Assembly: GCA_028685185.1 (NCBI GenBank) | Contig: JAQUEK010000007.1 | Location: 1-32,812, forward strand | Direction: 5' to 3' | Length of the DNA: 32,812 nucleotides | Origin: Candidatus Altimarinota bacterium | Lineage (GTDB): Bacteria; Patescibacteriota; Gracilibacteria; BD1-5; UBA2023 | Shown: piece after piece, positions 24,370 to 27,883 of the stretch | Layout of the letters: each line of letters opens with the position of its first letter | Position numbering within the stretch: the first letter of the stretch is position 1 | The notes under the pieces: generated by a model | What the model saw: only the letters and a program-made list of their open reading frames with translations | What the model was told of the DNA's origin: nothing | Databases searched by the model: none | Translations under genes and position numbers: made by a program

Positions 24370-25608
24370 TTACCTGAGTTCATATCAAAGGTCATTCTGA
24401 AGTTTTTCCCTAATCTCAAAATACATTTTATTTATTTCATCATTGGTCAATGTCCTTTCTATCGACCTGAAAACCATTTTCAGCGATAGAGACTTGTTTT
24501 TTGGTGTAAATTTAGTATCGTTCTCATAGATATCGATAATCTTTACCTCTTCAATAAGATCTCATCATACATCCCTAATTATTCATGTTATTGCAAAAAA
24601 GTCTGACTCCGTATCTTTTGTCAGCTCCAATTCTCAAGATTTCTTTTCTTCTTCAATATCTTTTTTGAATTTCTCTTTAGGAACAACCATTGAAATATCC
24701 TTGTATACAGGGGGAAAAGAACTTACTTCCTTATATGTCTCTAGATTATCCCATTGTTTGGTTATCCTAGAATCATTGCTCCAGAATATCCTTATGTCAG
24801 GAATCTGCTTCAATGCCATTACAAGCCTTTCTATTCAAAATCAGAATGCCCATCAATTGTATTTTTCCGAATCCAATCATAATTTTTCAAGAACATCAGG
24901 ATGAACAACTCATGCTCAAGTCACTTCAAGCCATTTTCATTTGTACATGACCTCAATCTCAAGACTATCGGTCGTATATGGAAATGAATCCTCATTGAAC
25001 CTATATTCTATATCATCTCAGAACAATGCCTTTATAGTATTTCATAGAACTTCTTTGAGCGTATCCTGATTTATTATCTCCTTTTCCTTGGATGTAATCC
25101 TGAGTCAATCGATCTGATGGAAACATTCATGATGTGTCTTATCGAGCTCATCGACCCTATACACCTTTCACCAGCTTAAAGCCTTAACTTCTCAATCTTT
25201 CTCAAGTTTTTCTATTCATCCTCATTTTACAAGATAATGATACCACATTACAGAAGTATGAGGCCTTAATAATATGCTATTTTTCTTATCTTCATTTTTC
25301 TGCACGAAATAGCTGTCGCTAGGTCTTCTTGCTACGTGATTTTCAGGAAAATTAAAAAGGTCAAATGTTTCGAATTCAGCAACGATTTCAGGAACCTCTA
25401 TCTTGTCAAAAGATTCGTAAAAAGGTGAACCGATGATATTCTCTATAAGCATATTTATAGGATGTCCTTTTACCTTTGTCAGATTTTGCATGGCATGAAC
25501 CCTAAGTATCCTTGAAAAATAAGCCTTTTCTGTTTCATTGAGATCTTCATTTTCAATCTTATCCCTAACAAAATCCAGCCAAATCTTATCATTTTCCAAT
25601 AAATCCAT
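24370..25608 (-). CDS. single-chain phenylalanyl-tRNA synthetase (catalytic + FDX-ACB)
   Basis: 412 residues. Class II motif 2 is near residues 149-166 (VYRVDELDKTHHECFHQ), followed by FGDDIEYRFNEDSFPYT, the substrate region WLEVTGAGVVHPDVL, and motif 3 FGFGIERL near 255. From about residue 298 comes a ferredoxin-fold anticodon-binding domain: FPPVYKDISMVVP, IIRDVGGDLIEEVKIIDIY and KMVFRSIERTLTNDEIN. In ordinary bacteria this domain is at the end of PheT and the enzyme is an alpha2-beta2 tetramer. Catalytic plus FDX-ACB in about 410 residues is the layout of mitochondrial monomeric PheRS. No pheT is in the window. About 15 UGA glycines, including one in the TGAG active-site loop. Divergent from glyS. 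Confidence 0.88.
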
Positions 25609-25702: not shown

Positions 25703-25729
25703 TTGACATAACAAAAAATCATCTATAAT
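25703..25729 (+). promoter_or_regulatory. promoter of the T-box/glyS transcript
   Basis: Perfect TTGACA (25703-25708) and TATAAT (25724-25729) separated by 15 bases, so the transcript should start near 25736. Confidence 0.7.
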
Positions 25730-25735
25730 ATACAC

Positions 25736-25889
25736 AAGCGAAAAAGAGGGCCTGAAAAAAGGAATACTTGGAAAATATCCCTAAGGTCACCTCAAATAGC
25801 TAAAGTGTCTGGTGCCATAAGGCAGTAGAAACTTGGGTGGAACCGTCCGATATTGGACCCCAAGACTGGAATTGATTCAGTCTTTTTTT
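25736..25889 (+). promoter_or_regulatory. T-box riboswitch, glycyl type
   Basis: The antiterminator is complete: CTTGGG (25832-25837), T-box bulge TGGAACC (25838-25844), GTCC/GGAC inner helix, CCCAAG (25859-25864). The terminator AAGACTG / CAGTCTT with seven U after it (25862-25889) shares AAG with the antiterminator. The variable T-box base is A, which pairs with discriminator U73 as found in bacterial tRNA-Gly. Stem I is short (25746-25793, GAGG/CCTC base), and a hairpin at 25809-25828 may be stem III. A candidate specifier GGU (25785-25787) lies on the 3' side of stem I; this assignment is tentative. Uncharged tRNA-Gly should turn glyS on. Confidence 0.85.
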
Positions 25890-25944
25890 GTTTTTAATGA
25901 TCAATTCCCGTACTTTTCATTTTTATTTTTTAACCAACATTATT

Positions 25945-27339
25945 ATGTCAGTAGAAATGAAAGATATAGTTGATTTCGCAAAATTGCGAGGTTTTGTCTA
26001 CCAAGGTTCCGAAATTTACGGATGACTTGCAAACACTTGGGATTACGGTCCATATGGATCAATCCTTAAGGAAAATTTGAAAAACGCTTGGATAAAATCT
26101 TTTGTCCAGGAAAAGAATAATATGACCCTTCTTGATGCTGCAATATTCATGAACCCTCAAACTTGGGTTACATCTGGGCATGTATGAGGTTTTGCAGATC
26201 CATTGATGGACTGTAAGAGCTGTAAGCAAAGATTAAGGGCAGACAAGATAATCGAAGAATATGCTGAGAAATCAAACGATTCTGAAATGCCTAAAGATTG
26301 GGCATGAGAAAAGACTCCACCTGAAAATCTTACAGCATATATAAAGGATAAATGAATAAAATGTCCTTTCTGTTGAGGGGATGATTTCACTGAGATAAGA
26401 CAATTCGGTCTTATGTTCAAGACTCACCAATGAGTATTGGAGGATAATTCTGCTCTAATATATCTTAGGCCAGAAACAGCACAATGAATTTTCGTAAACT
26501 TCGCTAATGTACTTAGGACTTCGAGGAAAAAAGTTCCATTTGGTATCGCTCAAGTAGGTAAGGCTTTCAGAAATGAGATAACTCCAGGTAATTTTGTATT
26601 CAGGACAAGAGAATTCGAACAGATGGAAATAGAATTCTTCTGTGAACCTGGTTCGGATATCGAATGGCATGAAAAATGGAAAACTGATTGTATGAATTTC
26701 CTTACTGAAACAATCGGTCTAAATAAGGAAAACCTAAGATTCAGAGACCATGGTCCTGATGAATTGTCATTTTATTCAAACGCAACTTCAGACATCGAAT
26801 ATAAATTCCCTTTCTGATGGTGAGAATTATGGTGAATAGCTGATAGGACAGATTATGACCTTAAGGCTCATATGACTGAATCTAAAGCTGATCTGTCATA
26901 TTTTGATCCTGTAAACAATAAGAAATACATTCCATATGTAATTGAACCTTCCTTATGATTGAATAGATTGCTTCTTACTACCATCCTTAGTGCTTATGAT
27001 AAGGTAGTGACTGAAGAGTGAGAAAGGGTTGTATTGAGGATAAATCCAAAATTGGCTCCGGTAAAGATAGGTATATTGCCTATCGTTAAGAAGCTTTCAG
27101 ATGAAGCGATGAAAATATATGACAGCCTTTCAAAAAAATGGATGTGTGAATTCGACGAGACATGAGCTATCGGAAAAAGATATTATAGATTCGATGAAAT
27201 CGGTACTCCATATTGCCTTGTTGTTGATAATGATACGGTTGAAAATTGAACTGTAACTGTAAGAGACAGAGATACATGACTTCAAGATATAGTAAAGGTA
27301 ACTGAATTGGAAGAATATTTCAGAAATAAATTAGATTAA
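25945..27339 (+). CDS. glyQS: glycyl-tRNA synthetase, alpha2 type
   Basis: 464 residues, class IIa, homodimeric type (not alpha/beta GlyQ + GlyS). Seen: [12 protein letters not shown] at the N-terminus, a zinc-ribbon-like insertion with CKSC near residue 90 and CPFC near 140, motif 2 [20 protein letters not shown] near 208, motif 3 VIEPSLGLNRLLL near 331, and a C-terminal anticodon-binding domain from about 365 ([10 protein letters not shown]). The enzyme that supplies glycine for UGA itself needs UGA read as Gly at more than 20 positions, including the Gly of motif 3. ATG at 25945 gives the expected N-terminus; there is no Shine-Dalgarno. Controlled by the T-box upstream. Confidence 0.96.
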
Positions 27340-27382: not shown

Positions 27383-27883
27383 TTAATTAATTTTAATTCA
27401 GTATCTTTCTTTCAATCATCTTTCGGTAAGAAGACAGGCATTATCGAAATCGAATCAGAGTAGTTCTACTCACTTTTGAACATCGGATGAATTATCGGAT
27501 TCCACCTCTACAAACCATGGTATGCCATCAAGCTTATCTATATCGAAATGCATGTTTCATAAGCTATAGCTAATCCTGGTTTTAGATGATTTCCCATATA
27601 AAGAAAATCAGATTCATTGCAAAATATGAATTATGTTTTCATAATCATCAAATTTTATTTCATATTCATTTTGTGATTTTACTCAAGGCTCATCTATCCA
27701 TTCCTTATATGTAAGTATGTTATCCTCTCACATTTTTCTTAATCTGATCTTTTTTCATGAATCATTTCCGAAAAAATCATTGCACACGGTTCATTCGAAC
27801 ATTTTTATTGCTCAAAGTTCCTCTAATTTTGCAATAACCTGTTCCTTATCTATTTCAAGGATTTTTATCTCAACCTCTTTCAT
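27383..27883 (-). CDS. CYTH-domain phosphohydrolase/cyclase-like protein
   Basis: 166 residues. It opens with the family signature EVEIKILEIDK (normally ExExK), followed by NDFFGNDSGKKIRLRKMGED and TYKEWIDE (acidic/basic strands of the triphosphate tunnel). It continues with KTRISYSLGNMHFDIDKLDG and PWFVEVESDN. CYTH proteins act on triphosphates (class IV adenylate cyclase, thiamine triphosphatase, inorganic triphosphatase); which one applies is open. It starts 157 bases upstream of the CDS end of glyS's neighbour block and lies 23 bases downstream of the glycosyltransferase gene, likely one transcript. Confidence 0.85.

Follow-up and report, generated by a model that had tools for sequence, protein, structure and literature searches.

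T-box riboswitches have been sorted into at least four classes (PMC10482949). As a rule, those acting on transcription depend on a long stem I that carries an elbow-binding motif, by which the tRNA is caught before the polymerase reaches the terminator (PMC7583486), and most ultrashort forms act on translation (PMC7583486; classes in PMC10482949). Two classes come close to the element considered here, which is found in a 32,812-nucleotide stretch of Candidatus Altimarinota bacterium DNA (positions 1–32,812 of contig JAQUEK010000007.1, assembly GCA_028685185.1; hereafter, the window), directly upstream of glyS (25945–27339), the gene for a dimeric-type glycyl-tRNA synthetase (GlyRS). The class II riboswitch of Bacillus subtilis glyQS is, like the window element, glycine specific and transcriptional, has a linker in place of stem II, and controls a glycyl-tRNA synthetase by the same discriminator (stem III, antiterminator helices A1 and A2, and UGGNACC). 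The class III riboswitch of Nocardia farcinica ileS (PMC10482949) has, also like the window element, a short stem I devoid of the interdigitated double T-loop motif (IDTM) and a specifier in the apical loop.

The window leader is very probably a transcription-attenuating glycyl T-box riboswitch of minimal form (about 25746–25889) that reads ordinary tRNA-Gly. In this leader, the reading head has the class III layout and the remainder is that of class II. While glyQS has a long stem I with a distal IDTM and its specifier in an internal loop, the distal part of stem I is gone from the window element and the specifier is apical. The loop, 9 nt, is somewhat larger than the 5–6 nt of class III. Class III requires a stem II with an S-turn and is mostly translational, whereas an eight-nucleotide linker is found here and the output is an intrinsic terminator; there is no room for stem II and stem IIA/B, because the specifier and the T-box are only 44–74 nt apart in 49 leaders. 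This combination of an apical specifier without IDTM, absence of stem II, and a transcription terminator is outside the four published classes. The stretch 25703–25944 runs from a promoter-like site through the leader RNA to the start of glyS, and its parts are as follows.

25703–25708 and 25726–25731 (+): promoter-like site, TTGACA and TAATAT separated by 17 nt (consensus scan, 10/12)
25746–25793 (+): ultrashort stem I, with a lower and an upper helix
25746–25753 / 25784–25793 (+): lower helix of stem I, with two single bulges
25754–25760 / 25781–25783 (+): asymmetric internal loop of stem I
25761–25766 / 25776–25780 (+): upper helix of stem I, with one bulged A
25767–25775 (+): apical specifier loop, CUUGGAAAA, holding UGGAA (25769–25773)
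25794–25801 (+): linker replacing stem II (direct reading)
25802–25831 (+): stem III with flanking purines, AAAGUG, hairpin 25808–25816 / 25821–25829, and AA
25832–25864 (+): antiterminator, consisting of A1, T-box bulge, and A2 (−11.1 kcal/mol)
25832–25837 / 25859–25864 (+): helix A1 (98.2% of cells paired)
25838–25844 (+): T-box bulge, UGGAACC, between A1 and A2
25845–25848 / 25855–25858 (+): helix A2 (99.6% of cells paired)
25862–25889 (+): intrinsic terminator, AAGACUGGA-AUUGA-UUCAGUCUU (hairpin 25862–25884, 9 pairs, −10.0 kcal/mol) and U run
25945–27339 (+): glyS, 464 aa (NF003211, 636 bits; TIGR00389, 515 bits)

The first-pass annotation of this DNA had described a glycyl T-box before GlyRS with a complete bulge, antiterminator, and terminator, all of which are indeed present. 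As it had proposed, the locus was searched with the Rfam covariance models, and the T-box family RF00230 is the best match: the full-length model is aligned to 25713–25865 with 25.2 bits (E-value 7.7e-4 in the stretch and 5.9e-4 over the whole genome), most strongly at stem III and the antiterminator. In the RF00230 scan of the 1.17 Mb genome, the glyS leader element is the sole credible T-box, and a second T-box-like match (C3:30177, E 1.4) is noise. The score is under the gathering score of RF00230 (93). A canonical Firmicutes glyS T-box (L042) also falls below it with only 58 bits, and for this reason the gathering score was dropped as a membership test. RF00230 expects a longer stem I, and the window element goes unannotated when the gathering score is applied.

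Comparison of related leaders carries the structural assignment. GlyRS loci were gathered from 77 genomes of the order, and for 67 loci the upstream stretch was read. At 57 of the 67, the element is detected by R1, a covariance model of the leader that served solely for searches and for one alignment (A3); in building R1, the A2 loops of G012 and G019 were trimmed manually. When 19 leaders were aligned independently with MAFFT, compensatory changes were found in 13 of 16 predicted pairs. In the alignment fitted to the model (57 rows), standard pairs occupy 98.3% of cells, with a covariation score of 0.547 vs. 0.259 for shuffled alignments (0 of 500 shuffles reach the score), and slid structures collapse; seven of the ten pairs of A1/A2 show compensatory changes here. 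Four pairs of stem III show them as well. With this covariation and pairing across related leaders, stem III, A1, and A2 are secure, and the T-box bulge is supported along with them. AAAGUG-stem-AA (25802–25831) also agrees with the 5′-RRRxG-stem III-AA motif of published T-boxes (PMC7583486), and UGGN of the T-box bulge is complementary to the U73-CCA end of tRNA-Gly(UCC).

Stem III itself is described as indispensable (PMC7583486). In the leaders of G040, G042, G045, G046, and G043 (L173, L170, L167, L174, and L163), it is unrecognizable, collapsed to AAAAGUAAAA with the flanking purines kept, and an A/U-rich hairpin looped by AAAA stands in its place in certain other genera. In the leader of G018 (L177), the nearest relative of the window by GlyRS, an insertion of short tandem TTTAAGA/TTCTAAG units (263–443) is found in the A2 loop, between the antiterminator strands.

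One terminator was found in the window leader where 0.1 was expected. Among 51 leaders, the terminator pairs with at least 3 nt of the A1 3′ strand in 40, often with all six, and this competition indicates transcription attenuation. The overlap of terminator and antiterminator that had been noted does exist, though in the window it is limited to three nucleotides (AAG), while most relatives use the whole A1 3′ strand. An inverted repeat, GGAATTGAT / GATCAATTCC (25868–25876 and 25899–25908), reaches from the terminator loop to past the U run; it shows no conservation, is absent in G018, is probably due to chance, and was set aside.

Stem I is unusually short, as the first-pass annotation stated: it spans 48 nt. 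The promoter-like site leaves no space for a long one, and transcription probably starts near 25737–25740, although about two promoter-type sites are expected by chance per region in the consensus scan. The specifier is GGA (25770–25772) in the apical loop, and the surrounding UGGAA is complementary to U33-A37 of tRNA-Gly(UCC). Side-by-side reading of 51 glyS leaders of the order revealed UGGN followed by A or G in 49, 44–74 nt before the T-box, with GGA, GGC, GGU, and GGG all represented. The apical loop is about 6–10 nt in relatives, and at least four contiguous pairs are formed in the equivalent apical hairpin of 40 of 48 relatives; the hairpin score summed over relatives is 555.5 vs. 305 ± 20 with shuffled flanks. 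Kink-turn-like G-A signatures are seen by direct reading between the lower and upper helices of G005, G011, G012, and other relatives, and are absent from stem I of the window. In an extreme case, two T-box leaders upstream of glyS (L133 of G028 and L141 of G015) have no stem I: stem III is directly preceded by a consensus-like promoter (TTGACA-17-TATACT and TTGACT-16-TATACT, respectively), and both the antiterminator and the terminator that overlaps it are preserved. These two lineages seem to have lost the codon-reading head.

The specifiers were then compared with the tRNA-Gly anticodons, which were located by pattern searches, examples being confirmed by ARAGORN; tRNAs of the window genome were found with Rfam models and ARAGORN on the loci. 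In the genomes of the order, tRNA-Gly(UCC) is found in nearly all, tRNA-Gly(UCA) in 66 of 77, and tRNA-Gly(GCC) in twelve. No tRNA-Gly(CCC) was detected in the 77 genomes, and thus it was ruled out as the source of GGG specifiers. The window genome (G000) and a single-contig relative (G064) have tRNA-Gly(UCC) and tRNA-Gly(UCA) only; the absence of tRNA-Gly(GCC) is firm for these two (the former as assembled), and elsewhere it rests on the pattern search. Among 48 genomes on the GlyRS tree, the GGC specifier occurs in nine of ten with tRNA-Gly(GCC) and in one of 38 without it (9/1/1/37; Fisher p 2e-7 for an earlier count of 8/1/1/38). On the tree, tRNA-Gly(GCC) changes about five times, and the specifier agrees in 4.5 of five independent pairs and opposes in none, five pairs being too few for p 0.05 in a sign test. 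UGGNA is complementary to positions 33–37 of the respective anticodon loops (UUCCA or UGCCA). That the apical UGGAA is instead a copy of the T-box binding the tRNA 3′ end was ruled out, since the UGGCA variants track tRNA-Gly(GCC), while the ends of the tRNA-Gly read remain UCCA.

The first-pass annotation had left it to the sensed isoacceptor whether the switch reports general glycine supply or the recoded tRNA. Because tRNA-Gly(UCC) and tRNA-Gly(UCA) are the only glycine tRNAs of the window genome and the specifier is GGA, tRNA-Gly(UCC) is the likely ligand, and from the leader and tRNA sequences we hold with good confidence that the switch would read ordinary glycine tRNA, hence general glycine charging. 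In glyS of the window, GGU is the commonest GGN codon (13 of 18). Since tRNA-Gly(GCC) is missing here and in most of the order, tRNA-Gly(UCC) must read GGU, which points to four-way reading by U34. Among the 36 tRNA genes on the eight contigs of this genome, tRNA-Cys was not detected, and it may sit in an assembly gap.

Several observations weigh against this reading of the leader. R1 gave no match at ten of the 67 glyS loci within the stretch examined. The stem I hairpin of the window has a bulge and by itself is not significant (16% of shuffles match its score), its upper part is weak, and the energy minimum buries the specifier loop. The terminator shares only 25862–25864 with A1, so that the switch may be leaky. 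As for specifiers, G043 has GGC with no GCC tRNA detected, G004 has GGA despite a GCC tRNA, and GGU (G058, G042, and G072) or GGG (G007 and G036) occurs with UCC alone; the last group would fit the reading of all four GGN codons by U34. Single-sequence RNAfold of the window leader did not recover the conserved stem I and was not used as evidence; in the predicted fold, GGUCACC of the stem I 3′ strand pairs with the T-box, a contact that shows no sign of conservation and was set aside.

A leader that has decayed or become constitutive, with the T-box a relic and no real switching in this species, would account for the weak stem I and the small overlap, and the loss of stem I in G028 and G015 is in its favor. 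However, the window retains every conserved position of the T-box bulge, A1/A2, RRRxG, and UGGAA, and the differences from relatives are compensatory, which makes decay very unlikely.

The next possibility concerns the genetic code. UGA means glycine in this bacterium, as had been stated: glyS contains 15 in-frame TGA codons, 12 of which fall where 29 relatives mostly have glycine (GGN or TGA), and the genome encodes a tRNA whose anticodon is UCA and whose 3′ end is UCCA. The T-box might therefore sense the recoding tRNA-Gly(UCA), through UGA at 25753–25755 or through a wobble-read apical UGG, and glyS output would track the demand for UGA decoding. This tRNA is widespread in the order with the same UCCA end, and UUGGA of the loop could pair with its U33-A37 with one G-U. 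The UGA triplet does lie in the 5′ strand of stem I as the annotation noted; as a specifier it fails, being unconserved, not presented, and half buried in the lower helix. Moreover, the base preceding UGG varies, whereas the base after GG is A, C, U, or G and tracks tRNA-Gly(GCC), which is sensible only for a GGN codon. Sensing of tRNA-Gly(UCA) is thus highly improbable, and the link between the T-box and UGA recoding is incidental. It is hardly credible that GGU (25785–25787), the specifier favored in the first-pass annotation, acts in a conventional internal specifier loop: it is a glycine codon and lies, like canonical T-box specifiers, on the 3′ side of stem I, but it is unconserved, is paired in the lower helix rather than placed in a loop, and lacks a detected GCC tRNA as its cognate in the genome.

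For the T-box reading ordinary tRNA-Gly, the following course, including tRNA binding, the direction of the response, and the exclusion of tRNA-Gly(UCA), can be proposed. Transcription would begin just upstream of the short stem I, which displays UGGAA in its apical loop. GGA would pair with the tRNA-Gly(UCC) anticodon, and the U and A on either side could extend the pairing to A37 and U33. When this tRNA is uncharged, its 3′ UCCA would pair with UGGA of the T-box bulge, and the antiterminator, braced by the stem III purines, would form and deny the terminator its 5′ strand, allowing transcription of glyS. With glycine-charged tRNA, the antiterminator would fail and transcription would stop at the U run. 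The switch would report the charging of the ordinary glycine tRNA, the only one detected here for all GGN codons, and tRNA-Gly(UCA) would mismatch the specifier and hence would not be sensed. In this bacterium, it is apparently the ordinary glycine tRNA that determines the supply of GlyRS.

T-boxes are common in this phylum: in a sample of 286 genomes, RF00230 matches 93 and R1 matches 28 at E ≤ 1e-3, only nine of the RF00230 matches exceeding the gathering score. The suggestion that a T-box is unusual here, as a mainly Firmicutes system, does not hold, and the window element is not exceptional for its phylum. R1 matches elsewhere in the phylum mostly precede aminoacyl-tRNA synthetase genes; the following proteins (L185–L213, many other families) have GlyRS-, ThrRS-, ValRS-, IleRS-, and AspRS-like N-termini by eye. 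Several GlyRS-type leaders among them share the short stem I with an apical specifier, and L197, L209, and L212 are apparently longer conventional leaders. No mention of T-boxes together with Gracilibacteria, Absconditabacteria, or Patescibacteria was found in the literature searched, most subscription journals and preprints being outside the search and the T-box database possibly including some.

The Firmicutes L042 has a GAUGA lower stem, as have several relatives of the window, with a GGCA specifier and the distal arm present, and the window form could be derived from a glyQS-type riboswitch by deletion of that arm. We lean slightly toward a fifth, minimal class of T-box, transcriptional and with an apical glycine specifier, without the elbow-binding distal stem I and stem II, which would be spread through Patescibacteria, be derivable from glyQS by distal-arm deletion, and be further reduced in two lineages to a discriminator without stem I. 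If so, co-transcriptional sensing of tRNA needs neither of the two affinity devices thought necessary, and a conserved transcriptional T-box of this kind is a direct counter-example to test against the long-stem-I view. The remaining interest is in the minimal architecture and in the natural specifier–tRNA series, in which GGA, GGC, GGU, and GGG against known tRNA sets provide ready matched and mismatched pairs.

Both neighboring genes of glyS are on the minus strand. The divergent gene (24370–25608) has matches to PheS, over most of its length, and to the C-terminal part of PheT, with TIGR00469 (mitochondrial type) at 199 bits, below the cut-off; it may encode a phenylalanyl-tRNA synthetase of single-chain type or some related ligase. 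The gene after glyS (27383–27883) matches class IV adenylate cyclase CyaB with 64 bits, just over the cut-off.
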